Shown: positions 29,738 to 55,930 of the stretch, piece by piece
Position numbering within the stretch: the stretch's first letter is position 1
How the letters are laid out: each line of letters starts with the position of its first letter
Assembly: GCF_011492945.1 (NCBI RefSeq)
Contig: NZ_CP045119.1
Span: 3,720,001 to 3,784,000, forward strand
Direction: 5' to 3'
DNA from: Rubrobacter tropicus
GTDB taxonomy: Bacteria; Actinomycetota; Rubrobacteria; Rubrobacterales; Rubrobacteraceae
Length of the DNA: 64,000 bases
Position numbers and translations under genes: made by a program
Notes under the pieces: model-generated
The model's database searches: none
What the model was told of the DNA's origin: nothing
Seen by the model: only the letters and a program-made list of their open reading frames with translations

Positions 29738-29751
29738 CCTCGAAACCTCCT

Positions 29752-29768
29752 TACCGATATGCTCGGTA
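29752..29768. promoter_or_regulatory. 17-bp operator, variant copy
   Basis: TACCGATATGCTCGGTA, two bases off the 29787 site, with centres 35 bp apart. It lies between the minus-strand leader ORF and the plus-strand XRE-like gene. Confidence 0.65.
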
Positions 29769-29786
29769 GCCTATCAGCGTGCATAT

Positions 29787-29803
29787 TACCGATATTGTCG
29801 GTA
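29787..29803. promoter_or_regulatory. 17-bp operator 1, overlapping divergent -10 boxes
   Basis: TACCGATATTGTCGGTA. On the plus side it runs into TACAAT (29802-29807), 6 nt before the ATG at 29814; on the minus side into TAATAT. The 17-mer is the exact reverse complement of the integrase site at 62621-62637. Confidence 0.8.
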
Positions 29804-29813
29804 CAATGCCACC

Positions 29814-30681: not shown

Positions 30682-30741
30682 CACCCTGCACCTGCCCCGA
30701 CCTGGCAGAGGATGCACGTAGTCGCTGGCCAAGTACAACCC

Positions 30742-30761
30742 TAACCCGGATTATTCACGGG
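30742..30761 (+). repeat. IS-end-like sequence, left copy
   Basis: TAACCCGGATTATTCACGGG; the same 20-mer with two mismatches is at 32180-32199 in the same orientation, where it precedes an IS1380-type transposase fragment. The two copies bracket the SIR2-RES gene. Confidence 0.55.
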
Positions 30762-30789: not shown

Positions 30790-32109
30790 TTAGCCGCCGT
30801 TGGCGACCCGGTGACGGTTGAGTACGGTTACTCGACTATTAGGCAGTAGAGCGTCAAGGAAAACCACCAAGACTTTCCCGCTTGGCGAGTAGCGGGAGGG
30901 GGCTATAAGCGCCTCTAGACCAGCATCACGAGCCCTTGCGGCGATTCCTCTGCTCAGATGCCGGTCGCTAAGAATCCGTCCGTCTATCTGCATGGCAACG
31001 CGAGTCATGGGGTCAAGCAGGTCCAGAACCTTGTCTAACTGTACTTCTAGCTCGACCAAGTCGAACGGGACGGTCTTAAAGTCGCCAGGTATCCGCCGTG
31101 CGAGTACCTCTGCTAATGCGCTGGCCGGACTCAATGTAGCGTAGAGTGCCCGCTCCCTAGGAGGGTGCCATCGACCGTCAAAAGGCAGGGGCGACTCCAG
31201 AATTACCGGATTCTCGGAGCGAACTATACGATACACGCGGCTGTGGAGGGACCGTGCCGGTAATTCTTGCCGGTCCTCCGTCTTGAGGGGGGCAGCCGCG
31301 CCGCGAATTGCCTCTGACAATCGCTGCATGAAATCGTCGAATTCGACTGAGAGAGCGTTTGAAGGATTTCCGGAGGCACCTAGGGGCTCAGCGATTTCAG
31401 TCGGCACAGTACCGTCCCCAGGACCGACAAACCAGGCTTCTCTCGGCCCTCCTGATTCGAATGCCGGACGAAGAGCCTCAACTATGTCCCGGTCACTGGC
31501 AGAGTACCCGACGAAGATGATCGCGTATTTCCGTACGGCCGATCGGAGCCTCTCAACTAACCAATCCTGTACCTGATTCTGCTCCCACACCATCGTGTCT
31601 GGCTGATCGAAGTCGCCGTGAACTTTGAAGATATCGAAATCCACATCGGGGTCATATCTCATGTCCGCTTCTCTTATGATGGCTCTTGAACGTGGCAAGA
31701 CGAGTTCCAACGCATTGTCCCAGTTCGCCGTATAAAGGAAGTCTGCGAAGTAGCCTTCCACCGTTAGTTCGGCCAAGGATTCATAACCTGAACTGGGCTT
31801 CCCCATTTGAAACAGTGGACGGATCCAGTGGCGAGCCTTGTCCTTCCCGTATTGATCGAGGACGGTTCGAGAAACGTTAGCGAATGTGGGGGAGCGGGAG
31901 TGCTCCTTCTTGAACAGCTCTCGCTGTGACCCTGGCGACTTACACGGGTACAAGAGTTCAAGGTATCGATCTTTGACTTTCTCGCCGAGCGGATAACCGC
32001 TGCTCACGGAGGCGCCGGCACCGGTGAATACAACGTAACCGCCCCCCCTCCTGCCTCTCTGGCTGGCGATCATCTGTCCAAGTGAAGCGATCCTATGTCT
32101 TACCCACAT
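30790..32109 (-). CDS. SIR2-RES fusion protein (two NAD+-consuming domains), defence/toxin candidate
   Basis: 439 residues. Residues ~25-270 form a SIR2 domain: NAD-binding YVVFTGAGASVSSGYP (GAGAS at 30-34), YTANWDNALE with the N129-x-D131 motif, KVHGDFDQPD with catalytic His164, and FVGYSASDRDIVEAL. Residues ~288-430 form a RES domain: SRVYRIVRSENP, then FDGRWHPPRERALYATLSPA and SALAEVLARR, matching the 'R..Y...G.W...G..alY.s.s...A..E' pattern of RES NAD+ phosphorylase toxins. SIR2 domains in ThsA/DSR proteins hydrolyse NAD+, and RES toxins (MbcT) degrade NAD+ with phosphate. A single chain with both is unusual and suggests NAD+ depletion in phage defence. No MbcA/Xre antitoxin is directly adjacent. 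Confidence 0.85.
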   Translation of the reverse strand: MWVRHRIASLGQMIASQRGRRGGGYVVFTGAGASVSSGYPLGEKVKDRYLELLYPCKSPGSQRELFKKEHSRSPTFANVSRTVLDQYGKDKARHWIRPLFQMGKPSSGYESLAELTVEGYFADFLYTANWDNALELVLPRSRAIIREADMRYDPDVDFDIFKVHGDFDQPDTMVWEQNQVQDWLVERLRSAVRKYAIIFVGYSASDRDIVEALRPAFESGGPREAWFVGPGDGTVPTEIAEPLGASGNPSNALSVEFDDFMQRLSEAIRGAAAPLKTEDRQELPARSLHSRVYRIVRSENPVILESPLPFDGRWHPPRERALYATLSPASALAEVLARRIPGDFKTVPFDLVELEVQLDKVLDLLDPMTRVAMQIDGRILSDRHLSRGIAARARDAGLEALIAPSRYSPSGKVLVVFLDALLPNSRVTVLNRHRVANGG

Positions 32110-32179
32110 TTCACACCCTCTTGCTCACAAGGGTAAACAGTACCGTTATAGTAGCGTTAAGCACTTCGATATAGGCAGC

Positions 32180-32199
32180 TAACCCTGCTTATTCACGGG
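32180..32199 (+). repeat. IS-end-like sequence, right copy
   Basis: TAACCCTGCTTATTCACGGG, about 75 bp before the remnant transposase start at 32274; probably the left inverted repeat of the decayed IS1380-type element. Confidence 0.55.
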
Positions 32200-32273: not shown

Positions 32274-32520
32274 ATGAGGGATTGTGCCACAACCCCGACA
32301 CGCTTCGACACCCTGACGAAGCTCGCGCTCAAGGCCGTCTTCGACGGCGGCAGCCTCACCAGTGACGGCGGGCTCACTTGGCTGGCCGGGACGGGCTCGG
32401 AGCTGGACTTGTGCGGAACCTGAGCGGAGCACATGCCGGAGTGGCGGCGCGGGAAGGCGCACTACCCTCTGCTCGCCCAGCGGAAGCAGCAACGCGTCCA
32501 GCATAAGTTACGTTCCCGCG
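32274..32520 (+). pseudogene. IS1380-family transposase remnant
   Basis: The N-terminal sequence RFDTLTKLALKAVFDGGSLT, SDGGLTWLAGTGSELDLCGT is the IS1380 start ('f...ltsdgGl..l.e.d..lgl.'). A TGA interrupts at about codon 49. The same frame continues HMPEWRRGKAHYPLLAQRKQ QRVQHKL, which is the normal continuation, and then the homology ends. Over 350 residues of the transposase, including the DDE core, are gone. It marks an old insertion between the SIR2-RES gene and the PIN pair. Confidence 0.75.
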
Positions 32521-32643: not shown

Positions 32644-33084
32644 TTAAAGGAGCCCAGCCTCCCAGAGACGGACGAACTGCGCGGGTCCCAGTACCGGCAC
32701 CGGCGGATCGCTCATCTGGAGGATGTCGTCGTCTCCGCTGACAACGTAGGAGGCCCTCTCCAGGACCGCGGCCATGACGTAGGGATCGTCTTCCGGGTCG
32801 CCCGTGTAGGAGGGCACCTCGTCCGAGTCGCCCGTGGAGATCTCTGTGATAGCGAGTCGCAGCCGCCTCACATATGCTCCGATCTGCGAAGAGTCCCACT
32901 TCAGCCGGTTGGCTATCTTGGGCCGGGCTAGCACCTCCTCGATCTTGGGGAAAAGCTGCGACGGCGCGCAGAGCTCGAAGTCGTGCGGGCCCTCTCCTAA
33001 AGCGTGGTCCAGAATGCGTGCAGGACTACCCTTCGAGCTAAGTACCGCGGAGACGCACACGTTGGCGTCCACCACGACTCTCAA
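32644..33084 (-). CDS. PIN-domain ribonuclease toxin
   Basis: 146 residues: MRVVVDANVCVSAVLSSKGS with the first catalytic Asp (D6), Glu in LFPKIEEVLARP, DPEDDPYVMAAVLERA and YVVSGDDDILQM with the later acids. This is the COG1569-type PIN (VapC-like) arrangement. The gene begins 3 nt after the end of the antitoxin gene. It should cleave RNA when released from the antitoxin; RNA target unknown. Confidence 0.9.
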   Translation of the reverse strand: MRVVVDANVCVSAVLSSKGSPARILDHALGEGPHDFELCAPSQLFPKIEEVLARPKIANRLKWDSSQIGAYVRRLRLAITEISTGDSDEVPSYTGDPEDDPYVMAAVLERASYVVSGDDDILQMSDPPVPVLGPAQFVRLWEAGLL

Positions 33085-33087
33085 AGC

Positions 33088-33411
33088 TTACCGGTCGTCG
33101 GCACTCTTGGTGGGAGGCGTACGGTCTCGCGCGGCTTCCATCTCGGCACCCACCAGCCCTTCCACCTCGTCCCCGGAAAGATCGGAGAAGGCCTCCCTGG
33201 CCTCTCGGGTGGACTCCACGAGCGCCCGCCTTTCTCCTTCCAGATATCGGTAAAGCCTTATGGGCACTAGCGCGAACACTTCCTCCCCGCGGCGCTCAAC
33301 TACCACCGAGCCTCCGCGCTCGACGTCCTGGGCCACCTGCCCTAAGGACCTGCGTAGTGTCTCAAGCGGGATGCGGTTGTTCGTTAACACGAAACACCTC
33401 TCGTTCCACAT
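33088..33411 (-). CDS. Phd/YefM-like antitoxin
   Basis: 107 residues from the ATG at 33411. The N-terminal part RIPLETLRRSLGQVAQDVER, then GGSVVVERRGEEVFALVPIR LYRYLEGE, is the Phd/YefM fold (helix followed by strand 'vvverrGepvAvLvp'). The C-terminal acidic tail would wrap the toxin. It precedes the PIN gene in the normal antitoxin-toxin order. It is divergent from the giant gene at 33509, sharing a 97-bp promoter region. Confidence 0.85.
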   Translation of the reverse strand: MWNERCFVLTNNRIPLETLRRSLGQVAQDVERGGSVVVERRGEEVFALVPIRLYRYLEGERRALVESTREAREAFSDLSGDEVEGLVGAEMEAARDRTPPTKSADDR

Positions 33412-33508
33412 GAACCGTGCGGTCCACATGGTACCATCAAGTCGTGTCATCTCGTGTTTCACAACCCTGCCCCTCACTCCGTGCGACAGCGTGCCATGGG
33501 GACGTCGA

Positions 33509-36500
33509 ATGAGCACAAGACGCGACGACTTCGTAGCCAAAGTTAGGAAAGTGCTCGCCGAGCGGGCGGGGGTTCGATGCTCGAATCCCGAATGCCAGAA
33601 GACCACGAGCGGTCCGAACTCAGAGCCCGAGAAGTCCGTGAACATCGGCGTCGCAGCCCACATCACCGCCGCGGCTCCCGGCGGACCGCGGTACGACGCG
33701 GCGCTCACCCGCGCGGAAAGGAAGAGCGCGAAGAACGGCATTTGGCTGTGTCAGACTTGCGCGAAGCTGATCGACAACGACTCGCAGCGTTTCCCCACGT
33801 CGCTTCTTCACGACTGGAAGAGGGGCGCCGAAGCCAGGGCTTTAGCCTCGGTCAGCGGCACCTCCCCAGCGGCGAAAGCGTCCGTGACCTCCGCTTCCGC
33901 CGCTCTTCTCGCGGGAGAGGTGGATCGGCTCGCCGCCCACGTCTCGGATACCGTCGATCGGGACCTGAAGCGCATGACCTCTGCGTGGCGGGAAGGCCGA
34001 ACTCGTGAGGTGGTGGAGTGGCTGGACGAAGTTAGAAGAGACGAGTCCAGATGGCGTGCCACGGCCCCCGCCTTGAAGGCGAGGTTGCTGAGGTTGGAAG
34101 CCAGCATGGCGCTGGAAATGGCGGACGACGTCGAAAGGGCCAAGAGGCTGGCGGACGAAGCGCGATCCGAAGCTCCTCTGGAAAACGATACCCGGTTAAG
34201 GGCCGTTATAGCCTACGCGGAGTCGGGACCAGAAGCGGCGGTCGAGCTGCTCGCCGAAGAGCGGGACATCGACGCCCTTAACCTTAGAGCCGGACTTCTG
34301 CTCGAGGTCAAACGAGCCGACCGGGCGGAGGAGGCCCGGGCTGTCCTAGACCTCAGCGGCACCGACCTGGAACCGAACGCCGAGACTTTTCGGGTGCGGG
34401 CCCTCTCCTGCCTCGCGTCCAAGGATTTGAACCGGGCGCAACTGGAGATACAGAAGGCCCTGGAACTCGGGGAACGGTGGGAGAGCGTGCGGTTTACCGC
34501 CGCGACGGTCGATTACCTCAGCTCCCTCTCTCCGGCGGCCCTGCCGGACAACGGCCCCGTGCCGTGGCCGGAGCCGGTGGACTGGCACCTGGTCAAGCGC
34601 GACGGCGAAAGCTTGGTCAGGCTGCGAGCGGCGGGGCGGACGTTCGAACAGTTGGCTGCGTCCGTCGAAGTAGCTGAGGAGAAACGCCGACTAGAAACCT
34701 GGCGACTGGCATGTCTGGCGAACGACCCTGACAAACTGCAGGAGGCCCATGACTACTGCGAGGCGATCTTGCAGGCCGATCCGGGTCACTACCGCGCCGT
34801 ACTGTGGGCGATCGCGCGCGGCATCGACGTCGACCTGAGCCCGAGCGAGACAGCGTTGGCAGAACTCGTCGCGGATGGTGTTGCGGAGCACGCGCACATC
34901 CTGGCTTTGACAAGCTTGTACTTCGTATCCGGCATGATGGTCGAGGCGGCGAAGCTGTTGGATGACACGAAGCACGTGTTTAGAGAGATCGGGGCCGACG
35001 CGCTTTGGACGTTCTGGCGCGCACAAGCATCGACGCTCGCCGGTGACGCCGAGGCCGCAATAGGGTTGCTGGACCGAGCCGGACAAGACGAGGATCGGCT
35101 GCGGGAGGCCCGCACGTTGGCGCTGCGAGCGCTCGCGGAGAAAACCGGCGATTGGGAGAGCCTAATCAGGCATCTGGAAACCTCCTACGAGGAGACCGGG
35201 GACGCCGACTTTCTGGCGAAATACTGCGAGCTAATGGCGCAGAGGCAACATTGGTCCTACGTGGCGGACAGGGCGGAGGAACTGGTCGACAAGATCGGCA
35301 CCGACGAGGCGGTCAGGCTCGCCGCGATCGCCGCGTATCTCTCGGATCGCTTCCGTCTCTGCATCAAGCTGCTGGACAAGCACAGGAATCTCTTCGTCCA
35401 AGGAAAGCTGCCCGACGAGCTTAGGCGCATTCGGGCCCTTTCCAGATCCGCCGTCGGCACCCTCCCGAAAGCGGTGGTCGAGGCCGAAGCGCTGGCGGAA
35501 GAATCCCCTACCACCCCTAACCTTGTCTCACTTGCGCAACTCTACTTCGCGCAGGGCGACCTGAAATCGCTGGCCGTGATCTCGCGCCGCCTTAAAGATG
35601 CGCCAGATCTGTCCCCCGAGTACCGCTTGGAGTTGAGCCGGCTGGTGCAACTGGAAGACCAGAGGCTAGCCGCGGCCCTATGGAGGGAAACCGTCTCCCA
35701 AGACCTGCCCGACTCTCTGGTCGGTATGGCCGTCTCACTGGGATTTCAGCTCAATCTCGAAGAGGAGGTGGGTCCGCTCGTCGCGAGGATGGCAGAGTTG
35801 GGGAATCGGGGCGAGGGAGGCGTTCAGGCGGTCAAGGCCGCGAACCTCCTCTCATTCCTGGAAGAGCGCCGAAAGGAAATGGCCGAGCTCGACGAACTCT
35901 ATCGCAAAGGTTCGGCACCTGTCCACCTTATCGCGGAGCAGGCGAACCGATCGTTGTTGGAGCTGTACCATGGAAGACCCTCCGCAAATGAAAGGGCGCC
36001 TGCTCCGACGATCCAACCCATCCTCTTTGTTCGCCACGGCGGTCGTGGACCCGTCCCCGATTCTGATGGCGCGCTGGTTGGGCGCCGCCTCCATCTGGAT
36101 GTGACGTCGGTGCTCCTGGCAGCACACTTGGAGATCCTCCAGCCGACGGAAGAGGCCTTCGGCCCGCTACGCATCCCGGCGGATCTTATACCCGCCCTGG
36201 TACTGATGACGGAGAAGACGTCGCACCATCAACCCTCGAAGATCGAGGAGTACAAACAGGTCGTGGAACTGGCAGAGGCCGGCTCGTTGGAAGTCGTGAG
36301 CACCGAACTGCGGACCGACCACGACGCCCGCTTGGTCGAAGAGCTCGGCGAAGACTGGGTAGCCGCGTTCGAGCAAGCGCGCGCGGAAAATGGGTTCCTA
36401 CTCGACTTCTTGCCGCCCGTCAGGCTCGGCCTGGATGGGCCACCCATGTCGTTGCCGGAGGACGCGGAGAAACGCCTGGTCAACTGCCGATCACTACTTG

Positions 36501-39500
36501 AGGTGTTGCGTCAGCGCGGACAGCTCTCCGACCGAGAATACGCGCGCGCTCGAAGCCGGCTGGGAGACGAGGGGCGAAAAGAGCCAAGCTCGGCGAGTCC
36601 CGAGGCGGACTCGATCCTGTACTGCGACGGGGGAATGGCCGAGCTTCTGGCGGGCGCCGGGATACTTTGGGCGGCTTGCGGGCTCTTCCGAATGCGTGTG
36701 GGTCAGCGAGAGCTGGACGGGGCTCGGGCGTCTTTGCGGTATCACGAGTACGCTCGCAGTCAGGTCGAGTGGCTCAACGATTTGATCGACAGGCTGAGGG
36801 GCGGTATCGAGGACGGCACGTACGAGGTTATCCCCGCGCCTTCCCGAAAGGAAGAGGACCCCAAGCTCGCGGATTCGGCCCAGCTGGATCTGATCTGCCT
36901 GGAGACACTGTTCAGGTTCGAGGCAGAAGACGGCGACGTGGTCTGGATCGACGACCGGATGGCGAACAGCTACCCGGCCAGAGGCAGTGTACCCATAGTC
37001 GGCGTCTTGGAGGTTCTGCGAGCACTGGTCGCCGCAGGTCATCTGTCCGAGGACGAGTGCTATGACAGAATCGAACGGCTGCGGGCGGCCAACGCACGGT
37101 TCATCCCCCTCCATCAAGACGAGATTCTCTACCACCTCCGGAAGGCCCAGGTAATGGAGACGGGCGTTCTCGAGTCGCGGCCACTTCGTACCCTGAGACG
37201 TTACTATGCTGCCTGCCTCTCGCGGATCGAAGATCTCCAGCGGCCTCCGATGCCAGAGGCCGCTCCCAACCAGTTCGGGGAGCTCGAGTTCGTCGTCGGC
37301 CTTAACCGCTCCGCCTCCAGCGCTCTCCCCGAACTGTGGAAGGGGAACGAGGAAGACTACGCACGCAGAGTTAGGGCGGAGTGGCTGCTGGCCAACCTGT
37401 ACCTGGATTTGCCAGCGCTCGCGCGCATGACCTGGTCGCAAACCGAGGAAGAGGACGACCGCTACAGGCTGGCCGTCGAACTCGCCGGGCTGTTGTCCCA
37501 GGCGATGCAACTCGATTGGCGCGTCCATGGGGACGAGTCGTCGCCGCGCCGGACGTACCTCGCCTGGTTGCACGAGCGTGTTCTGAGCAAGCGCTTCGAC
37601 GCTGATCCCGATCTGATCAGTGAGGTGGCAGAGTCCCTCAAAGAGGGTTTCGCAGAGATACAGGAGAACATCGAGGGCGAGGATCAAGCGCGGGCGGCGA
37701 GCCTCTCGCTCCGTCTGTTCCTCGCTGATCTTCCCGAGACGTTGCAGAAAGAACTCGGTCTTGACGCCAAACTCATGGAGAGCATAGGCATCAAGCATCC
37801 GAGAGTGGCGAGCATCGGCGACCTCTCGTTCGACCCCGACGCATTTGCGCGGGCGGCAACCGAGGCGGTCAACGGCCGCGAAGCGAAGATCGCTCTGGTC
37901 GAAGGAGACGAGAAGATCACGTTCTCCCCCCTGCAAGACCAAGCGGGCACTGTCGGACTGCGCTTGGCACTACCGGGGGACGGTGGGGATACCAACATTA
38001 CCGATGAGATCCTTACCGTGCTCAGACAATCGGTCACGGAGCGCGAGGCGGTACTTCGGAGGAACCGCCGCTGGTTCGACTGCCGGGACGACGAGTTCGA
38101 GCGCGCGGTCGTGGAGATCGCCTCCGCCGACGACCCCCAGCGACGGCTCGACGAGACCGAGAGATGGCGAAACACCAGCATGGCGGTGTTCTACGCAAAC
38201 CTGCACAGGCGGCTGGCTCAACAGCGGATGTTCAAGCTACCCGAGCTGCGTCCCCCGGACGCCAAGGCGTTGAGCCGGCACTTGCGGCTCCATCCCGAGA
38301 CGGGATCCGGCGGAGAATTCCGGGCCGCCCTCGATGCGGCTGCCGATAACCTCATCAGGGAAGAGGGACTTATCGTGGCGATCGAGCGGCTCGCCGGCCT
38401 CCCGGTTCCTTTGCCGAAGCCCGTGATAGAAGCCGTCGCGGCCATGTCCCCCGCAGATCGTTGTTCGCTCTTCCGACGATTGCTAACCGCTCCGGGCTCG
38501 CCACCCTCAAAGATGCAAGTCGTTAGGCTCTTGAGCCGCTTCGCCGAAGACACAGAAGCCTACTATCGGCTCGGGCGCCGGATCGCCGCTCGGTACTTTT
38601 CCCTCGACGGAGCAGAAGAGTTCGATGCCTTCCTCTCGATACTCAAGTGGGTCAACGACGAGTTCGACCGCTGGCCGGAGGCACGTTCCTGGAGCCATAC
38701 CATCCGTTCGACGATGGTTTGGGCCCACGCCCACCGGCTCTTCGTCATCCTGGTCTCCACGGGGGCTCCCTTTCACTGGCTAGGTCGCACCTTCGCCCAA
38801 CCCGGCGACAGGCGTATGACATCGGAAGTGTTCGAGCGGTCCCGTGAATACTGGTTGGATGTCACCCATCCGCGCCGAGTAACCAGGGAAGCTTTCCTGC
38901 TCGGGGGCCTGCCTTACGGCCTCGGCGACAAGGCCCAGAGGTTCGCCAACGAGGCCTCCTTGGAGACCGCGGACGGGATGCAGGGGGCTCAGCTGTTCCG
39001 GGATCCCACGCTGGCGCGCAACGACCTGAGCTCCTACTTGGGCGGGGACAGGGGAGAAAGACTATCGAGTCTCCTCGGTTCAGAGCAATCCGACCTCTAC
39101 TCCCGGCAAGCCCTCAGATCGTTAGTGAAGGAGAAGCTAGACAGACGGGGGGGCCCGGAGCAGGAACACTTAATGTGGGCCTCGATACACGCCGTAATCG
39201 GCGACCTGCCCCCCTACGAAGACTTGGTGGCACCCCTCGACGAAGCCGTCAGACAAACGGATTTCGTCGTATTGACGCGAAAGAACGTCCAGACCGGAAT
39301 CCTCGCGGTACACACAGCTTCGCAGCTGTCGCTGAACTTGGGCGACGAGGGCTGGAGAAGTCGTCTAAAGGAACAACTCGTTGGGATAGGAGCTCTCTTT
39401 GCCGAGTCGGACAGCGGAGCAGGCAGTGAGCAGGCCAGTGTTCAAGCTTTTACGGGAAACGTGAACTTTTCGGCGTTGGTGGACGCGGCACTTGCGGTCT

Positions 39501-39673
39501 GTTCTCCAGGAGATGTCCACCCCGAGTTCGCCGCGCTTGTCGATCGACTAGCAGGCGCCTGGCCCGCAACAACTCCCTTCTTCAGGCTCACGGTGCTACG
39601 CCTCTGCGAGGAGTTACCAGTTTCGCAGGCCAAGAACTACTGGCCCCTGCTCGTCAGGCTGCGCGCAGAATAG
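33509..39673 (+). CDS. Giant HNH-like/TPR/PIN protein (2,054 aa), defence candidate
   Basis: Start ATG at 33509 (MSTRRDDFVAKVRKVLAERA); an earlier in-frame start would overlap the antitoxin gene. Residues ~20-100 are an HNH-like zinc module: CSNPEC at 24-29, AHITAAAPGGPR and NGIWLCQTCAKLIDND, with Ala where a classical HNH has the second His. Residues ~130-850 are TPR-like helical repeats. Residues ~855-1190 look like a PIN nuclease: LHLDVTSVLLAAHLEIL, then ILYCDGGMAELLAGAGI, VVWIDDRMANSYPARGSVPI and VGVLEVLRALV. The last ~850 residues are helical with no recognised domain. No membrane segment. The layout suggests a sensor-effector protein. It is isolated as a single gene, convergent with the Xis-like gene. 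Confidence 0.8.
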   Translation: MSTRRDDFVAKVRKVLAERAGVRCSNPECQKTTSGPNSEPEKSVNIGVAAHITAAAPGGPRYDAALTRAERKSAKNGIWLCQTCAKLIDNDSQRFPTSLLHDWKRGAEARALASVSGTSPAAKASVTSASAALLAGEVDRLAAHVSDTVDRDLKRMTSAWREGRTREVVEWLDEVRRDESRWRATAPALKARLLRLEASMALEMADDVERAKRLADEARSEAPLENDTRLRAVIAYAESGPEAAVELLAEERDIDALNLRAGLLLEVKRADRAEEARAVLDLSGTDLEPNAETFRVRALSCLASKDLNRAQLEIQKALELGERWESVRFTAATVDYLSSLSPAALPDNGPVPWPEPVDWHLVKRDGESLVRLRAAGRTFEQLAASVEVAEEKRRLETWRLACLANDPDKLQEAHDYCEAILQADPGHYRAVLWAIARGIDVDLSPSETALAELVADGVAEHAHILALTSLYFVSGMMVEAAKLLDDTKHVFREIGADALWTFWRAQASTLAGDAEAAIGLLDRAGQDEDRLREARTLALRALAEKTGDWESLIRHLETSYEETGDADFLAKYCELMAQRQHWSYVADRAEELVDKIGTDEAVRLAAIAAYLSDRFRLCIKLLDKHRNLFVQGKLPDELRRIRALSRSAVGTLPKAVVEAEALAEESPTTPNLVSLAQLYFAQGDLKSLAVISRRLKDAPDLSPEYRLELSRLVQLEDQRLAAALWRETVSQDLPDSLVGMAVSLGFQLNLEEEVGPLVARMAELGNRGEGGVQAVKAANLLSFLEERRKEMAELDELYRKGSAPVHLIAEQANRSLLELYHGRPSANERAPAPTIQPILFVRHGGRGPVPDSDGALVGRRLHLDVTSVLLAAHLEILQPTEEAFGPLRIPADLIPALVLMTEKTSHHQPSKIEEYKQVVELAEAGSLEVVSTELRTDHDARLVEELGEDWVAAFEQARAENGFLLDFLPPVRLGLDGPPMSLPEDAEKRLVNCRSLLEVLRQRGQLSDREYARARSRLGDEGRKEPSSASPEADSILYCDGGMAELLAGAGILWAACGLFRMRVGQRELDGARASLRYHEYARSQVEWLNDLIDRLRGGIEDGTYEVIPAPSRKEEDPKLADSAQLDLICLETLFRFEAEDGDVVWIDDRMANSYPARGSVPIVGVLEVLRALVAAGHLSEDECYDRIERLRAANARFIPLHQDEILYHLRKAQVMETGVLESRPLRTLRRYYAACLSRIEDLQRPPMPEAAPNQFGELEFVVGLNRSASSALPELWKGNEEDYARRVRAEWLLANLYLDLPALARMTWSQTEEEDDRYRLAVELAGLLSQAMQLDWRVHGDESSPRRTYLAWLHERVLSKRFDADPDLISEVAESLKEGFAEIQENIEGEDQARAASLSLRLFLADLPETLQKELGLDAKLMESIGIKHPRVASIGDLSFDPDAFARAATEAVNGREAKIALVEGDEKITFSPLQDQAGTVGLRLALPGDGGDTNITDEILTVLRQSVTEREAVLRRNRRWFDCRDDEFERAVVEIASADDPQRRLDETERWRNTSMAVFYANLHRRLAQQRMFKLPELRPPDAKALSRHLRLHPETGSGGEFRAALDAAADNLIREEGLIVAIERLAGLPVPLPKPVIEAVAAMSPADRCSLFRRLLTAPGSPPSKMQVVRLLSRFAEDTEAYYRLGRRIAARYFSLDGAEEFDAFLSILKWVNDEFDRWPEARSWSHTIRSTMVWAHAHRLFVILVSTGAPFHWLGRTFAQPGDRRMTSEVFERSREYWLDVTHPRRVTREAFLLGGLPYGLGDKAQRFANEASLETADGMQGAQLFRDPTLARNDLSSYLGGDRGERLSSLLGSEQSDLYSRQALRSLVKEKLDRRGGPEQEHLMWASIHAVIGDLPPYEDLVAPLDEAVRQTDFVVLTRKNVQTGILAVHTASQLSLNLGDEGWRSRLKEQLVGIGALFAESDSGAGSEQASVQAFTGNVNFSALVDAALAVCSPGDVHPEFAALVDRLAGAWPATTPFFRLTVLRLCEELPVSQAKNYWPLLVRLRAE

Positions 39674-40048: not shown

Positions 40049-40058
40049 GCGAGCATAT

Positions 40059-40075
40059 TACCGACATTGTCGGTA
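40059..40075. promoter_or_regulatory. 17-bp operator 2 (Xis-like gene)
   Basis: TACCGACATTGTCGGTA, a perfect inverted repeat around the centre, immediately adjoining minus-strand -10 TAATAT (40055-40060). It differs from operator 1 at one base per strand reading. Confidence 0.8.
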
Positions 40076-40432
40076 AAAATCTACCCGTGTCTTGAGTCCG
40101 GTTGGGTTCTGAGGAAAAGCAGGAAGCGCTATGACGCTCACTTTCGGAGGCTAGGGCGAAGGGCACCATGATTCGAGACGTTTCGATGGTTATCGAGCCA
40201 AGATTTGGATCTGAATTGTGCCGATTAGGTGAAACCGACGACCTCCGTCATCAGACTCTTTGGGGCCCAATGCATCGTCGTAGAGCCGAAACTGCCATAA
40301 GCGATACCGCCCCCGTCCCGGCACGAGTGCGGCAGCAACCTGACGTGTAGACACGAGTTTGAGGGTTCAATGGGTTCTACGAGCCTTGCCTGTAACGCCC
40401 AGAGAAGCTATTCTCAACCAACGCTCTCGTGC
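40076..40432. other. Gene-free stretch
   Basis: 357 bases between operator 2 and the end of the NTPase A gene. I see no gene with a ribosome site and no strong terminator. Confidence 0.5.
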
Positions 40433-43400
40433 TCAGCGCAACGCGGCGTTGATGAGGAACGCCTCTACACGCAGGTCCCCCTGTGAGAGTTTCGCGGCTT
40501 TCGCGTTGAGCTTGCGCAGGGCGTCCTTCGGATCGCGCCGCATGGCGGTCTTGTGCCTCGGATCCTCTTTGTCCCATTGGGGACAGTTGAACCACCCAAC
40601 CAGGTACAGCCCGTGCCTGCAGCGGTTGTCGCGCAGGTACCTGCCCGCGAGCTGCGCCTCCATCTCGTGGTACAGCCTCTGGTACCAGTTACCCTTGGCC
40701 TCGATGATGACCGTCACGGGGCCGTACTCCTCGGTGCGCGGGCCGCGCACCGTGGCATCCACGCGTATGTCGGTCCTTCGGCCTTTGCTTTCGCCTTCGC
40801 CTCGGCTTATGACAACCTCCCGATTTACGACCACGCCCCTGCGCTCCAGGTCTTCCTGAAGGTGCCTCTTCACGTAGTCGGAAAACCTTTCTTCGCCCTT
40901 CGGCCTCTGGGTCCCATCGTCGCGCTCGTTCCAGAGGTCGGGCGCCGCGGGGGTTTCGCCCCGCAGGTTGTCCTCCAGCCTGCCCAGCGACTCGATCACG
41001 ACATCCAGGAGTTGGTCCCCGTTTCGCACCAGCCTCGCTGTCCGTTCTGCGGTCAGCTTGCGCACCCCGGTAGGATCAGGGGCGGTCCAGGTCTTGAGCC
41101 GCGCTTCGGCCCTGGCCTGGTACAGGGTCCAGCGCAGCGTCTCGAGGAGGGCGGGCAACGCCTCCATGATTCGTTCGATCTGCCGGCAGGCCTCGAAGGT
41201 CCCGCGACCGCGCAGGTTTCCGGGTATGTCGTCCCGCCACATGGCGATGCTCTCCTTGAGGCCGATGGCGGTCAGGTGCCCGTCGTCGCGGTACTTCATG
41301 AAGTATTCGGAGGGCGGGTAGCGGTCCATCAGCCAGATGTACAGGTCGGCCGCCTCCGACTCGGAGAGGCGCTTCTGCGGGCGGTTGGAATGGTGGGCCG
41401 TGCTGGCGATGGCGTCCACCAACTCGTCGGCGAATCCCTCGTCTCTTTGCAAGGCCGGCCACACCACGGACCAGCCCGCGTCGGCCGCGTGAAATATGAG
41501 GGCCCCCGCGGCCACCACCGCACGTGCCCTCGCTCCCTCTTCTTCATTCCCGGCCCCGGAGACGACAAGCGACTCCGCGAAGGCCTCCGCTTCGTCGAGT
41601 CCGTAGTCCAACAGGTCGTTCAGCAAGGACGAAAGGCAGGAGGGCTTCAGTCGTTCGTCCTGTGCCTTCCTCAGTAGGGCATGCGCGAGCCGATCGTCCC
41701 AGCACTTCTCAAGATCGCGGGTGACCGACAAGAAGCCCTGTTCTTCGTTCTCTTTGTCGATCAGGAACAGCGCGGTGTCGATGACCGTCCCGGGGGCGTG
41801 TCGGTAGGCCATCGCTACCAGTTCGTGGTGCGGCTTCATCCCTTCGGTGCTCGTCGAGATCGGGTAGCCGAGGATCGCGGCGGCCCATCTCTCCCACGCC
41901 TCGTCCGGGATCTCGGCGACGAAGTCCGGCGCCAGATTTACCAGCAGCCGGAGCGCACGGTAGCCAGCGTCCGTAGGGTGAGCCTCCCAGATCGAGCCTT
42001 CGCCCAACCAACCGTCTAGTTCCGGCTCGCCTTCCAGGACGTACCGCTCGGCCGCCCCTACTATCCTGTCCCTGGTCGCGGCGTCCGCGGCCTCCCACCC
42101 GGGCAGAGCGGTGAGGTCCCACTCCGTCGGGCTTACTCGGGAGCGTCCGTCCTCGTCGAACTTCAGGAAGTAGTCGACGCGCCGCCAGAACGCGCCCACG
42201 TCGCCGGCCTCGGCATCGTCCAGCGCGCGGAGAATCCTCTCCTTCAGTGGCGGGTCCGGCGGCGGAGACTCCTCGCGGTTCTCGCGCCAGCTTAGACTCT
42301 CGCGGTGGTAGCGACGCTGCTCCTCGGCCTGAGTGGACGATAGCTCGACCGGGTCGAAGAAGCGGCCGACCTCGTCGGCGAGCGCCGGTGTTCTCTGGTA
42401 GGCAAGGTACAAGAGCTCGTGCTGCTCGTCGCCCCAGCCGTAAAAGGATCGTCGTACGAGGGCGGCCAGGACTTCCCTTCCGCGTCCAGGGGGCGCGGCC
42501 TCCAGCTCCCCGATCAGCCACGCGGCGTCCTTGGCGAGCAAGAGCGGCGTCTTGTATTGGACGAGGAGCCAGGCCCCGTCGTCCTCATCCTGGAGCAGCC
42601 CGAGCATCTCCACCATCAGGCCACGCCGCTTCCGGTCGTCTGCGGCGACTCGGTTGCGGAAGGACGGTTCGTCGGAGTCGGACGCCACGAATACGGGCCT
42701 CCGCTCCTGCACTATCTCGTCGTGCTTCCTCAGACGCGCGAGGGCGGCCCTGGCGAAGGCTTCCTTGACGCCCGGATCGTCCAAGTGATCCCAAGCCCGC
42801 AGCATGATCTGGTCCATAAGGCCCGCGAGCCTGTAGGACGCCTCGTGGCGTCGCTGCTGACCTTCCACCCACGCGAGCGCCTCAGGAAGATCGGCCGGCC
42901 GTAGGCGCTCGGGCAGGTCGTCGTTGAGGAACGACGCGTAGGACCCGAAGTAGTTGTCGTTTGGCCTTGCCAAGGACCGGAACAACTCATCGGCGGTCAG
43001 GTGCTCGGGCCACAAGGCGTGGAGTCCCCACCCCCTGAGGTCGCCGTTCGGGTCTTCGCCGGCCTCTCCCAAAGCCAGCGGCCTGAGCAGAGACCTCGTC
43101 GGCCCGTCCCCGACGTGGGCCACGAACGACGCCGCTTCCTTACGGACGAAGTGGGGCTGAGAGGCGTCCAAGGCCACCTCGGCTGCCGTCCCCTGCAAGG
43201 TTCGCAGTTCGCACGCCTCTGCGATGTCCAGCGCGACCCTGCGCACCACGAAGTTACGGGTAGCGTCCGCGATGTAAGGTCTGAGCTGTTCCGCCAGGCC
43301 CGGATGGGCAAGCTTCCTGTAATCCTTGTGCGGGATAAGGCCGATGTCGAGCAATTTCCCCTCGTCGTACAGCCGAAGCATGGCGGCTACCAACCCCGCC

Positions 43401-44707
43401 CTGGCTTCCACGTCGGTGCTCGCGACGTCGCTCCGGAGTAGCACCTCGGGCTCTGAGTCCATCACGGCCCAAAAGAATTGGTCAGACACGCTCGCCAGCC
43501 AGGCCGCCGTCTCGTGCAGCTGCGGGACGAGCCTGCCTTCCTCGTCGTCGGGGTGCAGAATGAGCGACATCGCCTGTTCCACCCCTACGTCCCTGCGCGC
43601 TAGATAAAGGGCGGCAAGGAACTCCGCGTAGGTCTGGTGCGCCCAGCCGAGCCTCTCGGAGCCACGGGCGGAGAACAGGCCTGTGTCGAGGACCTCCCTT
43701 ATCGCGGCCTCCCCCACGGGGAATTCTTGTCCGCTGACCGACTCCGCGCCGTAGGCAAGCTCCCTGACCGGGATGTCATCCTCCGCTTGGACGGCCCGCT
43801 CGAGTCCCGTCCAGACGGCCTGCTTACCCGAGAAGATGGTCAACGCCGCCATGCGGGCGGCGACTGCCAGCCGCTGATCGGCGCTGAGTTCCCCGACGAG
43901 CCCCCTGTCGACGCGGTCCTCGTTTCTCTCCTCGCACAAGCGCCGGCAGCCGTCGAGGTAGAGGTCGGCCTGGTGTTTCGGGAACCCGCCGGTTTCCCGG
44001 TAACTGTCAAGTAAGAACTCTAGCGTTACCGGTTTGATCGCCAGCGGCACGGCCTCCGCCTCGTTCACCGCCGCCAGGAAGCTATCCGGGCTCATGTCGT
44101 TGGTCTCGGCCGCCACGGCCACATCCACGCGCCGTAACGGGGCCAACTCGTACACGCCGACGGAGCCCTCTCTCCAGAGCTTGTTCATGCCTCCTTCCAG
44201 CTTCTTCGGCCAATCCGCCGTCCGACATCCAATACGTAGGGATAGGCGATCCACTGGGTGCTCCGCTAACTCTTCTAATAGAAGGTCCACCACGTTGGCC
44301 ATGAGCAGGCGACATTCGTCGAGACCATCCAGGAAGACGTGGAGGCGGTAGTCTCCAGATCTCCACCCCGCGAACTCTTCACCGCCAAACAACCTGCGGG
44401 CGAGTCGGGTCTCACTTCCGTACCCGCCCAGGCTGATCCAGATAGTCTTGTCGCCACCGGCTTCGATCTTTTCCCACTCGTCCCGGAGGGCGGTCGTCTT
44501 GCCGATACCTGGTTCGCCCAATAAGGCAAGACAAGGCACGTCGGAGATGTGCTCGAACGGACGTAGGTCGGAGTTTGCGAACCGCCCGTAGGGACCTTCG
44601 GGATCAGTCAGGTACCCATGGTCACTCAGATCGAGGGCGCCGTTCCATGGACACCAGAATCGTTTCCAATCGTATCGAGATCGGGTCGGCGCGCTCGTGT
44701 CGCTCAT
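40433..44707 (-). CDS. STAND/NACHT-type NTPase A with C-terminal PD-(D/E)XK nuclease
   Basis: 1,424 residues from the ATG at 44707 (GGGGGCG upstream). P-loop GEPGIGKTTAL at residues 64-74 and Walker B VFLDGLDEC give a NACHT/STAND ATPase at the N-terminus. A long helical, HEAT/TPR-like middle follows (~300-1280). Near the C-terminus RTDIRVDATVRG and VTVIIEAKGNWYQRLYHEM (about 1313-1345) fit D-(x)n-E-x-K of a restriction-like nuclease. The nuclease lies C-terminal, opposite to the N-terminal effectors of known Avs proteins and of NTPases B and C. It begins 13 nt after the coupled 101-aa gene, so it is in one operon with NTPase B. Probably a phage-sensing defence protein. Confidence 0.82.
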   Translation of the reverse strand: MSDTSAPTRSRYDWKRFWCPWNGALDLSDHGYLTDPEGPYGRFANSDLRPFEHISDVPCLALLGEPGIGKTTALRDEWEKIEAGGDKTIWISLGGYGSETRLARRLFGGEEFAGWRSGDYRLHVFLDGLDECRLLMANVVDLLLEELAEHPVDRLSLRIGCRTADWPKKLEGGMNKLWREGSVGVYELAPLRRVDVAVAAETNDMSPDSFLAAVNEAEAVPLAIKPVTLEFLLDSYRETGGFPKHQADLYLDGCRRLCEERNEDRVDRGLVGELSADQRLAVAARMAALTIFSGKQAVWTGLERAVQAEDDIPVRELAYGAESVSGQEFPVGEAAIREVLDTGLFSARGSERLGWAHQTYAEFLAALYLARRDVGVEQAMSLILHPDDEEGRLVPQLHETAAWLASVSDQFFWAVMDSEPEVLLRSDVASTDVEARAGLVAAMLRLYDEGKLLDIGLIPHKDYRKLAHPGLAEQLRPYIADATRNFVVRRVALDIAEACELRTLQGTAAEVALDASQPHFVRKEAASFVAHVGDGPTRSLLRPLALGEAGEDPNGDLRGWGLHALWPEHLTADELFRSLARPNDNYFGSYASFLNDDLPERLRPADLPEALAWVEGQQRRHEASYRLAGLMDQIMLRAWDHLDDPGVKEAFARAALARLRKHDEIVQERRPVFVASDSDEPSFRNRVAADDRKRRGLMVEMLGLLQDEDDGAWLLVQYKTPLLLAKDAAWLIGELEAAPPGRGREVLAALVRRSFYGWGDEQHELLYLAYQRTPALADEVGRFFDPVELSSTQAEEQRRYHRESLSWRENREESPPPDPPLKERILRALDDAEAGDVGAFWRRVDYFLKFDEDGRSRVSPTEWDLTALPGWEAADAATRDRIVGAAERYVLEGEPELDGWLGEGSIWEAHPTDAGYRALRLLVNLAPDFVAEIPDEAWERWAAAILGYPISTSTEGMKPHHELVAMAYRHAPGTVIDTALFLIDKENEEQGFLSVTRDLEKCWDDRLAHALLRKAQDERLKPSCLSSLLNDLLDYGLDEAEAFAESLVVSGAGNEEEGARARAVVAAGALIFHAADAGWSVVWPALQRDEGFADELVDAIASTAHHSNRPQKRLSESEAADLYIWLMDRYPPSEYFMKYRDDGHLTAIGLKESIAMWRDDIPGNLRGRGTFEACRQIERIMEALPALLETLRWTLYQARAEARLKTWTAPDPTGVRKLTAERTARLVRNGDQLLDVVIESLGRLEDNLRGETPAAPDLWNERDDGTQRPKGEERFSDYVKRHLQEDLERRGVVVNREVVISRGEGESKGRRTDIRVDATVRGPRTEEYGPVTVIIEAKGNWYQRLYHEMEAQLAGRYLRDNRCRHGLYLVGWFNCPQWDKEDPRHKTAMRRDPKDALRKLNAKAAKLSQGDLRVEAFLINAALR

Positions 44708-44720
44708 CGCCCCCGACCGA

Positions 44721-45026
44721 TCATGCGAATGTCTCCTCAAGGCGCCCACCGACGTCGCAGAGTTGCACCAAGGCTGAAAGCCACATCTCCGGCGAAGAGT
44801 GCAACGGCCGGGTTTCCTGATCTCGTGTCAGTGTCAGACCGCCGAAAGAACCAAGAAACACTGCCGGATGGTTCCCAAACTGCTCTACGTCCCTCTGGTG
44901 CAGACCGTCACCGTAAACAGCCAAGCTGTGCACACCCCTGCGTAGAAACACGGTTGCGCCGATCTTGATCGATTGTTTATGCCCCAAAAGGCCGCTACCT
45001 TCGGCCAGAAAGCGCTCCGCGCTCAC
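44721..45026 (-). CDS. Small coupled protein between NTPases A and B
   Basis: 101 residues from a GTG at 45026 whose GTGA overlaps the NTPase B stop; the TGA at 44721 is 13 nt before the NTPase A start. The sequence (VSAERFLAEGSGLLGHKQSI, KIGATVFLRRGVHSLAVYGD, ...HPAVFLGSFGGLTLTRDQE) has mixed beta/alpha character and coding-like composition; no family recognised. Tight coupling on both sides shows it is a genuine operon member, perhaps an adaptor, regulator or immunity-type partner of the NTPases. It is easily missed because of its GTG start. Confidence 0.75.
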   Translation of the reverse strand: MSAERFLAEGSGLLGHKQSIKIGATVFLRRGVHSLAVYGDGLHQRDVEQFGNHPAVFLGSFGGLTLTRDQETRPLHSSPEMWLSALVQLCDVGGRLEETFA

Positions 45027-48000
45027 AGGTCTATGTCCTCGTCGATCTCCTCGATACGCTCCTTCTCTGCCTTCTCTCGCAGGAAGGCCGCAAACTCCCG
45101 AAGCCAAGGCTTGGCAGCCTCGGGCGTTTCGCGATCCCCAAGGACCCTCTCAACATCTTCAAGCACGGATTCGGTTTGCCCGAACGAGGGGCCCCAGTGG
45201 GATATTATGCCTCCACGGATGCGATGGGCTCCGAGTGCTACGCCGTCCTGAATGTCCACGTTGTCGGGGTACCTCGCTAGCAAACCGACGGCCACGGGCC
45301 AAAATCCAGTTACTGCCGCGGTGATGCTGCGGGCGATCGTTTCGGCCTGTCTTTCGTCCTGATCGGCCAATGCTATCAGCAGGTCGCGGTCCGCTTCCTG
45401 GTCGAGCACGCCCTGCAGCAGCTGCGGGACGCCGATTATCCTGCGTTGCGGCCCAACCGCCGACGAGATCACGAGTCGGATAGCCCTCTCGCGATCGATA
45501 CCTCGTAAAGTCGCCCAGAGTTCGTTCTCCCGACGGTCTCCGAAAGGCTCCCAACCCGCCGCATCAGCCCGTCTCAACAGCGTTTCGAGGAGCCGGAAAC
45601 CCCTTTCGGGGTCCCGCCGGGCGAGCGCGGCGCTTAAGCGGTCGAGGTCGTAGTCATCATGATCGGAAGAGGATCGAGCCGCTTCCAAGCACCTCCACAC
45701 GAAGTTTGCGAGCTCCCCTTCCAGAGGCTTCTCTATCAGATCCCAAAAGTTAGCCACCCTGACGGCGACCATCGCGTGTTCGAGATCTGGGGTCGCGAGC
45801 AGACGCAGCAGTTTCAGGCAATCTTCGGACTCAAGAGGCTCGGTCCACCGTCCGTGCAGGATCCGCTCGACCAACCCTGGGTTCGCACGCCCTTCCGACA
45901 GCAACACGCCGATGCGTTCGATACCAGGCACGCTGCCCCCCAGCCGGCTCGTAGCCACCAAGATGGCCAAGTCGCTGACCTCGCGCGTCTCGGATAGCTC
46001 GTCGAGCTGGTCCTCCACCGACGCGCGGTCGTGCTCCGCTAGGCCGGCCAGGTACGCCCCGAATGGGTCCGCCCCGCCGTCGCGAGATCCGAGACTCTCC
46101 ACCTTCGCAAGCCAACGTTTTTCTGTGTCCAGCTTGCCGAACTGCCAGAAGAAAACGTGGCTCTTTTCGGCCTCCTGTGACAGCAGCCAGTCGAGTAGAT
46201 CGTCCGTCAGCTGCTCCGGGTTATCCAAGATCTCCTGGGCAAGGTCCCGCAACTTCCGAGCGCCCCGTTCGAGGTTGTGCCCGTGCTCGTCGACCTCACG
46301 GTCGTAGTCTTCGAAGGTCCACTCGCCGGCCAGCCTCTTCAACCGGACCGGAAAGCTCCCCGAGTCGAGCCGCTCCATCAGGCGATCGACGTCTTCCACG
46401 GGTTTCTGGGTCTCACCCCCGGGCTCGGTCCCGGGCCGGCTCAGCCCGTCTCGCACCCGGCGTAGCTGGAACGCGAGGTCTGCCACGGGTATGGCCACCT
46501 CCTGGGTCAGCGCCCACTCGACCGCCGTCTCCAGACGCTCGACGGCGACGCGCGGTCGGGCGTAGAAGGCGGACGTGGCGATGGACTTCGGAAGAACGGC
46601 CATCGCCGCGTCGGCGGCCTCTGGATCGTCCGAGCGCGCGACGTCCATGAGCAGCCCGACCAAAGCTTCGACGTACCGCGAGATCTCGTCGCTGGTCATC
46701 GGGGGTGCCGTGTCTAGGGGCGTTGGCCCCTGACTGACGAACAGCATCATTCCCCGCTGCGGGATGCTCCCCTCGATAGCCTTGACCGCCAGCGTGCGCA
46801 TCCCCACAAACTCTTCTTTCTCGAACATCTCCCGGAGTAGCAGTAGTCTCCTGTCGAGCGTCAAGGGAAACTGTGGATTGGTCCAGAAGAAGCTCTCGCA
46901 GAAGACGCTCGTGGCGTTGCTGCCGTGGTCGTCGGTCTCCGCCTCGGCCAACAAACCCAGGCACCGCAGCGCCGTTTGGGCGGTTTCTCTGCGGTAGAGG
47001 CATTCTTGCAGGGCCCACACCAGCTGCTGACGTTCATATCCCGCGATTTCGCGCCGCTCCTGCCGGCTCATCACCGATAGTCCCCTCCAGACCATGTCCA
47101 CGAACCGCCCGGGCTCCGCGGAGGCGGCGGGCCGTAGCAGATCGGGAAGGGACCAAGCGCTGGGCAAGTCTCGGAGGGGGCCGCTCGAGTTGAGCATGGC
47201 GTCCCAGAACAGGGATGCCTCCTCGACGGTCAGGCCTTGCAGGCGCCGAATCATCCTCCGTCTCGCGCGGTCGCTCAGGGCGGAGAAGAGGCCAACGAGT
47301 TCGGAGGCCCGCCCGCGGAGGGCCATCGCGCAGAGGTGGTTGGCGAAGAAGGTCGGGGTCACCTCGGCGTAGGATCCCCTCGGGCGTACGAGGCCGGCGG
47401 CAACCAAGCTATCCAATGTCCCAAGAATGTCGTGCTTGGTTGCGCCATCGCCGAAGTTTTCTAGCACGGCTTCGAGCTCTTCGAGCGCCGCCCTGGCGAC
47501 ACCGACTTGCGGAAGCAGGCTGAGTAACGTCAGCACCTTGAGGGCTTCTTCTCCCAACTTGCGCTTGACCCGGCGCTCGAACGCCTTGCCCACCTGCTCG
47601 GAGAAGGAGCCTGCCCTGGCCCTAAGATCCGGACCGACGCTCGCGGCCGTAAGCAGGATGTCGGGGTTGCCGCCGGCCCGCTCGATCACCCACTGCTCCA
47701 AACCGAAGTCCAAACTTGGCCCGGCTGCCCGCAGCAGCTCCCCCGCCCGCTCTACTGGGAGAGGCTCCAGCTTGAGGGTTGACACCCGATCGTCTTGTCC
47801 GAAGTTGGGCGCGGGCGCGTCCTCGGGCGTGGGTAAGACGATGAGCAGCTTGAGCCCTTCGATGGCCAAAGCGCCGTGGACCAGCTCTTCGGCCTTATCG
47901 GGGTCTGGATCGTCCAAGATGAGGACGACTTCGTTGTCGCACGATCCGAGCATTAGCAGATCCCCTAGTTCGAGCGACCGCGGCTCGACGGCGACGATGG

Positions 48001-55824: not shown

Positions 55825-55930
55825 CAGGGCGAGCGCCGAAGAACAGCTCTCGGGTAGCCCCTGACCGCCGGATGTGGCATGGTTCTTCTCCCAGGACCGA
55901 CACGCAGGTCCACCGCGGGAGGGGCGGAGT

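Follow-up and report, generated by a model that had tools for sequence, protein, structure and literature searches.

A single gene in the 64,000-nucleotide stretch of Rubrobacter tropicus DNA analysed here (the window) encodes a protein of 439 residues in which a SIR2 domain is followed by a RES domain. The gene occupies positions 30790-32109, as given by the initial annotation, and lies on the minus strand, with an ATG start at 32109 and the stop at 30790. When the product was scanned against Pfam-A, SIR2_2 (PF13289) matched residues 125-230 (31420-31737; E 4.6e-12, 46.7 bits against a curated cut-off of 24.5) and RES (PF08808) matched residues 292-417 (30859-31236, minus strand; E 8.8e-15, 55.5 bits against a cut-off of 23.2); no third family was found at E up to 0.1. 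As judged from these E-values, both assignments are far beyond chance. With a SIR2 profile of our own, the first domain covers residues 12-265 approximately (31315-32076, minus strand), and the RES domain was also recovered by a search of the whole genome. Thus, the two domains are joined in one chain, as had been proposed, and the C-terminal part does match RES. The simplest account of a defence-island gene whose product has two active sites, both largely intact and both for one substrate, is an effector that depletes NAD+. Our favoured reading, held tentatively and at somewhat less than an even chance, is that the protein would be a self-contained, single-gene effector of the abortive-infection type, both halves of which would act on NAD+, which would be triggered by phage infection, and in which one half would perhaps restrain the other until then.

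An assembly or frame artefact was ruled out by the single open frame, by the 21 and 20 stops found in the remaining two minus-strand frames across the gene and by the equal GC3 of its two halves; the plus-strand translation of the same interval is also full of stops. A simple scan revealed no terminator-like site for the gene, nor any promoter-like one on its coding strand, which counts against the favoured reading, and Rfam gave zero matches within the window. Of eleven PADLOC matches to the protein, the strongest were to pAgo, Aga_SIR2 and ThsA models and covered the SIR2 half; PDC-S25, mad2 and Dsr1 models scored lower. In NCBIfam, the only match was to a RES/Xre toxin family and was sub-threshold (19.4 bits against 110); none of its families thus accounts for the full-length product.

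Both a GAGXS and a T-x-N-x-D-type (TTNXD-type) motif are present in the SIR2 half, and the motifs listed earlier were found in their places: GAGAS at residues 30-34, NWD at 129-131 and KVHGD with H164. The catalytic stretch (31618-31725, minus strand) runs from the codon for N129 (31723-31725) through D131 to that for H164 (31618-31620). In our profile of 148 unique rows, N129 is identical in 147/147 and H164 in 146/146 ungapped relatives, and G30, G32, T127 and D131 are likewise invariant among the ungapped rows. Counted along PDB sequence alignments, N129 aligns with N133 of DSR2, and H164 with H171 of DSR2 and H146 of KomC; H171A in DSR2 and H146N in KomC are mutations named in the titles of solved structures. 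In Avs5, according to a passage of one report, the N110A and D112A substitutions abolish immunity (PMC12931631).

An AlphaFold2 model computed with 51 SIR2 relatives was good over the SIR2 half (pLDDT 66-94 in ten-residue blocks across residues 1-240) and poor over the RES half, with a mean pLDDT of 65.5. The first matches of this model in a Foldseek search of the PDB were KomC/HAM-SIR2, SPARSA, ThsA and DSR2. A second structure comparison placed KomC (Z 20.2, rmsd 3.1, 242 residues aligned), ThsA (Z 20.0) and DSR2 (Z 19.8) at the top, with lower scores for Avs5 (17.0), SIR2/HerA (16.3), human FAM118B (15.8) and Sir2 homologues together with SIRT3 (13.3-13.6); the alignment reaches residue 424 through stray helices of the unreliable half, and this extension is not read as RES homology. 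The structure prediction suggested earlier as a check thus returned a SIR2 fold for this half, with Z about 20 to KomC, ThsA and DSR2, and by this model the half is nearest in fold to the anti-phage SIR2 NADases, not to deacetylases. The protein could instead be an NAD-using enzyme outside defence, such as one acting in ADP-ribosylation or stress, located in a defence island by chance, and ADP-ribosyltransferase activity is indeed assigned to some RES proteins in a passage of PMC12457610. However, both the kinship of the SIR2 half with anti-phage NADases and the defence-like character of the neighbourhood argue against this explanation, which we regard as highly improbable.

That the gene lies in a defence-gene region, as the initial annotation had stated, was borne out by its neighbours. 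An Avs2-like protein is encoded 17 kb from the fusion gene (49121-53512) and scores 488 bits to a PADLOC Avs2 model, the best of three stretches covering residues 2-984. On the strand opposite the fusion gene, a giant protein (33260-39673) matches PADLOC endonuclease-effector and SAVED_HNH models at its N-terminus and also carries HTH_upst_double_PIN and permuted GreAB-C domains, with faint TPR matches. Faint matches to AAA/NACHT-type ATPases were found in two further large neighbours, a 1438-residue protein (40433-44749; AAA) and a 1247-residue protein (45023-48766; AAA, with a weak PD-Lambda-4_A match). At the far edge of the region lie a tyrosine-type integrase (61339-62559) and an IS481/rve-type transposase (55874-57121).

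The RES motifs of the C-terminal half were located as RVYR (residues 291-294), GRWH (312-315) and AEV with E334. Arg-Glu-Ser is described as the putative catalytic triad of RES proteins in a passage of PMC12457610; this triad (R313, E334 and S405) and the pocket tyrosine (Y323) are all present, encoded within 30895-31173 on the minus strand (R313 at 31171-31173, S405 at 30895-30897). In a profile of 66 unique RES relatives, R313 is kept in 54/54, Y323 in 62/63 and E334 in 62/64 ungapped rows, and S405 in 51/66 when all rows are counted. The residues given as conserved in NatT, R23, R82, Y93, S184 and N193 (in the part of PMC11535050 that treats them), would map to R294, R313, Y323, S405 and V413 of the fusion protein. 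A section of PMC9503650 names Tyr and Asn as the residues that RES proteins typically have in exchange for those of the ART active site; the tyrosine is kept here, but the asparagine is a valine. Column 413 of our profile holds Asn in 23/53 ungapped relatives and Val in 11, so that this Asn is no universal feature of the family. The objection raised by the missing Asn is softened, but not removed, by the 30/53 ungapped relatives that likewise lack it and by the valine that two Xre-paired RES proteins (L008 and L012) carry at this column. Nor do the kept Arg, Glu and Ser prove activity, since GndR keeps all three, although a heading in PMC12457610 presents it as devoid of canonical function. 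The earlier interpretation of the protein as a possible double NAD+-depletion effector is partly supported, by two domains of NAD+-using families with most catalytic residues kept, and is weakened by the loss of the canonical RES Asn.

In the full-length model, residues 280-326 and 343-387 fall under pLDDT 50, and a separate model of the RES half, computed from 5 alignment rows including four added phage RES rows, reached a pLDDT of 36.7 and is unreliable. It is thus from sequence that the RES domain is assigned. Compared by itself with PDB sequences, the RES half matched solved RES toxins weakly (best 9r35, E 0.043); once the four phage RES rows had been added, a profile search retrieved ParT and MbcT among other RES toxins, a gain that stems partly from the added rows.

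Leaving out the fusion gene, we took the 20 RES frames with the highest scores (of 68 frames that matched the RES profile), which represent 18 distinct places, and surveyed the genes upstream of them. In 18/18, an open frame ends just upstream of RES on the same strand, and in 17 it matches the Xre/MbcA/ParS toxin-binding family at an E-value of at most 0.01, with 11 of the matches exceeding the curated cut-off; in the eighteenth, L221, the upstream frame has a sub-threshold match to an Xre-like HTH. In the fusion protein it is the SIR2 domain that precedes RES, and thus SIR2 occupies the antitoxin's place. When the fusion gene and its neighbours, nine frames in all, were scanned with Pfam, none matched an Xre/MbcA/ParS antitoxin. 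Genome-wide, no frame exceeded the cut-off of 24.5 bits for PF09722 (Xre/ParS toxin-binding), and there were two weak matches, at 14.5 and 12.9 bits. The former lies in a 219-residue frame just upstream of the genome's other RES gene (L031; contig 2, 115414-115791), which came from the whole-genome RES search. The initial annotation had seen no obvious antitoxin next to the fusion gene: this holds for the Xre kind in the nine frames, but a Phd/YefM-type antitoxin and PIN toxin pair, of another kind, lies about 0.5 kb upstream (32644-33459; Pfam and NCBIfam).

This arrangement raises the possibility of a fused toxin-antitoxin in the style of CapRel, in which RES would be the toxin and SIR2, active as an NADase or not, would restrain it and sense phage in the place of Xre. 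The in-frame position of SIR2, where an Xre-family gene stands in the relatives, is as expected from such a design, and CapRel-SJ46 is described in a passage of PMC10865869 as a fused toxin with an antitoxin and sensor in cis. An antitoxin, however, would not need the SIR2 catalytic residues, which are kept, or a fold that matches NADases, and we think this explanation rather unlikely.

In the single-gene effector that we favour, the N-terminal SIR2 domain, switched on in infection, would split NAD+ by hydrolysis into ADP-ribose and nicotinamide, and the C-terminal RES domain would act on the same NAD(P)+ bond through a different reaction, which in some characterised relatives is phosphorolysis. 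As no Xre antitoxin was found next to it, RES would most likely be restrained by the fused SIR2 domain together with the oligomeric state of the protein, with restraint perhaps running both ways, until a phage signal arrives. A stricter form of this reading, with two warheads, SIR2 hydrolysing and RES phosphorolysing NAD(P)+ and SIR2 replacing the Xre antitoxin as the safety catch, is possible but doubtful. If it held, a RES domain would be used in immunity, a use that had not been seen before according to the statement on this point in PMC11535050, and a phage could hardly escape by blocking one active site. Should both halves work, one effector would contain redundant chemistry; should one half restrain the other, the protein would show how a RES toxin can be managed when no Xre antitoxin accompanies it.

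The most serious rival to the effector reading is that the protein has one warhead and one regulator. SIR2 would then be the sole effector, and RES, in the place of a sensor, would bind an NAD- or phage-derived signal and control SIR2. A layout with the effector first and the sensor last is found in ThsA, with its SLOG domain, and in DSR2, and both are fold neighbours of our SIR2 half. The same order is described as usual for NACHT proteins in a passage of PMC10952713. The two Pfam families found at E up to 0.1 leave no other sensor domain in view, and the canonical RES Asn is missing. Against this, a domain that only binds would have no need of the RES Arg, Tyr, Glu and Ser, all of which are present; we consider the regulator unlikely.

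Each domain is of a known kind, and it is the combination that is new. Among SIR2 effectors, KomC/HAM-SIR2, DSR2, ThsA, Avs5 and SPARSA have the SIR2 fold and the catalytic Asn/His region in common with the fusion protein, and its top matches in structure and in PDB sequence are among them. They differ from it in their partner or sensor parts. Thoeris ThsA is defined by a C-terminal SLOG domain; the fusion protein has none, with SIR2_2 and RES as its only families at E up to 0.1. Avs5 and other STAND SIR2 effectors carry a STAND ATPase in the chain, whereas Pfam shows no ATPase domain in our 439 residues. A RES domain, present in the fusion protein, is not named in the entry titles or passages that describe these SIR2 effectors. 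The RES-Xre modules (ParT, MbcT, NatT and RESpp) share RES with its Arg, Tyr, Glu and Ser, but have an adjacent Xre antitoxin; the fusion protein has SIR2 ahead of RES in the chain, no Xre found adjoining it and Val for Asn. CapRel-type proteins, as portrayed in PMC10865869, resemble it in having a toxin-type domain and another domain in one chain with no separate antitoxin gene; their domains, however, are unrelated to those found here, and both of ours look like enzymes on the same small molecule. Multidomain RelE/ParE or HicA defence proteins are a further likeness, in that a toxin domain of toxin-antitoxin systems has been recruited into a larger protein (passages of PMC11980606 and PMC10865869), but their toxin folds are other ones. 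The term "Sir2" is absent from the main texts of PMC11980606 and PMC10865869, and "RES domain" from the HicA paper; in the RelE/ParE paper the word "res" occurs 15 times, as part of journal names in the instances displayed.

Passages in the literature describe SIR2 effectors as lowering NAD+ so that phage growth stops (PMC12931631), and several RES toxins as consuming NAD+ (PMC11535050; PMC9503650). In 2024, the known NAD-targeting bacterial immunity was stated to consist exclusively of TIR and SIR2 NADases, and the RES toxin-antitoxin systems were described as without any link to immunity so far and as of unclear physiological role (both in passages of PMC11535050). In agreement with the earlier claim that no described system joins both domains, we found no SIR2-RES protein in passages of the open-access full-text literature, to which the search was confined. 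With RES welded to an anti-phage-type SIR2 in a defence island, a role of RES in immunity can be put to a direct test, for which a single gene and changes at four residues suffice.

The fusion protein was searched for in five draws of genomes, which overlap in part. Matches were found in 12 of 396 genomes of the phylum, its own genome included, in 4 of 394 genomes of one class within the phylum, and in 17, 1 and 6 genomes, respectively, of draws of 378, 194 and 188 centred on three genomes to which other loci had led. Judged from the listed query ranges, no second gene spans both domains in the five draws, and the gene itself was the only one to do so, in the draw of 396; where a genome had many candidates mostly 4 were scored (up to 8 in the draw of 194), a depth at which weak relatives can be missed. 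Among 72,556 plasmid records, 77 matched with the E-value limit at 1e-3 and 286 with the limit at 10, and no single place covered 80% of the query; 2 of 50,697 phage records matched, over the SIR2 part only. Viral contigs gave no match to the single-protein query, and 3 and at least 80 loci, all SIR2 relatives only, with the SIR2 alignments A2 and A5, respectively; scans of these contigs for RES relatives yielded few. When contigs of 84,980 species were scanned with two SIR2 motif patterns, 394 stretches with 228 relatives were obtained, and the 80 best of these relatives contained no fusion; one whose motifs are spelled differently would escape these two patterns.

RES is present in 86 of the 396 genomes of the phylum; 20 further stretches were taken from these, mostly around long frames and not for every RES row. 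In the frames of 196 collected loci, both domains occur nowhere but in the gene itself, and among 245 collected loci, at E up to 1, 72 frames matched RES and 180 matched SIR2, with both together only in four loci that contain the gene itself. The search for other SIR2-RES fusions that had been proposed thus brought up no second one in the draws, the plasmids, the phages or the narrow contig scans, and within these limited searches a common, already characterised family did not emerge. By the searches made, the fusion is rare, which is not to say unique. Since no second fusion was found, conservation of the architecture lends the effector reading no support.

Other multidomain RES proteins were seen among the collected loci. 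In L203, L205, L216 and L222, RES ends longer frames whose N-termini carry paired Cys motifs, zinc-finger-like by eye, and these form another multidomain RES group. In L223, a C-terminal RES domain sits on a long frame that looks haemagglutinin-like by eye and resembles an interbacterial polymorphic toxin.

The SIR2 half of the gene has a GC content at third codon positions (GC3) of 0.604 and the RES half one of 0.594, whereas seven of the window's other genes range from 0.752 to 0.921. The halves share one foreign composition and so appear to have arrived already joined, which would make the fusion older than its arrival in the present genome. A recent fusion, in place, of two resident genes is disfavoured by this shared composition. 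The other RES gene of the genome, on contig 2, is free-standing. The fusion gene is bracketed by a 21-bp direct repeat (plus strand), one copy at 30741-30761, 28 bp past the stop codon, and the other at 32179-32199, 69 bp before the start codon; within 2 mismatches, these are just two copies in the 4.58-Mb genome. Beyond the right copy lies the remnant of a transposase gene of the PF13701 type (32319-32459), with a broken start and 19.5 bits against a cut-off of 34.7 (E 6.6e-4); it is the sole match to this family in the genome at E up to 0.001. PF13701 corresponds to the IS1380 group. Perhaps the 21-bp repeats represent the ends of such an element.

A broken transposase gene next door, repeat copies on both sides, the lack of any relative found with both domains and the missing RES Asn would all fit a decaying or accidental fusion, stranded among insertion-sequence remains and free of any selected function. 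Yet the 439 codons run without a frameshift or stop, the other catalytic residues tested are kept in both domains, and the foreign composition common to the two halves, unlike that of the other genes of the window, places the fusion before its arrival. We therefore judge such an accident very unlikely.

A second, imperfect repeat is also present in this part of the window. Two 37-bp stretches (29777-29813 and 40049-40085; 84% identical) share the palindromic core ACCGAYATTGTCGGT; they lie 10.3 kb apart, flanking the fusion gene and the giant protein, and a related 18-bp copy occurs at 29751-29768.
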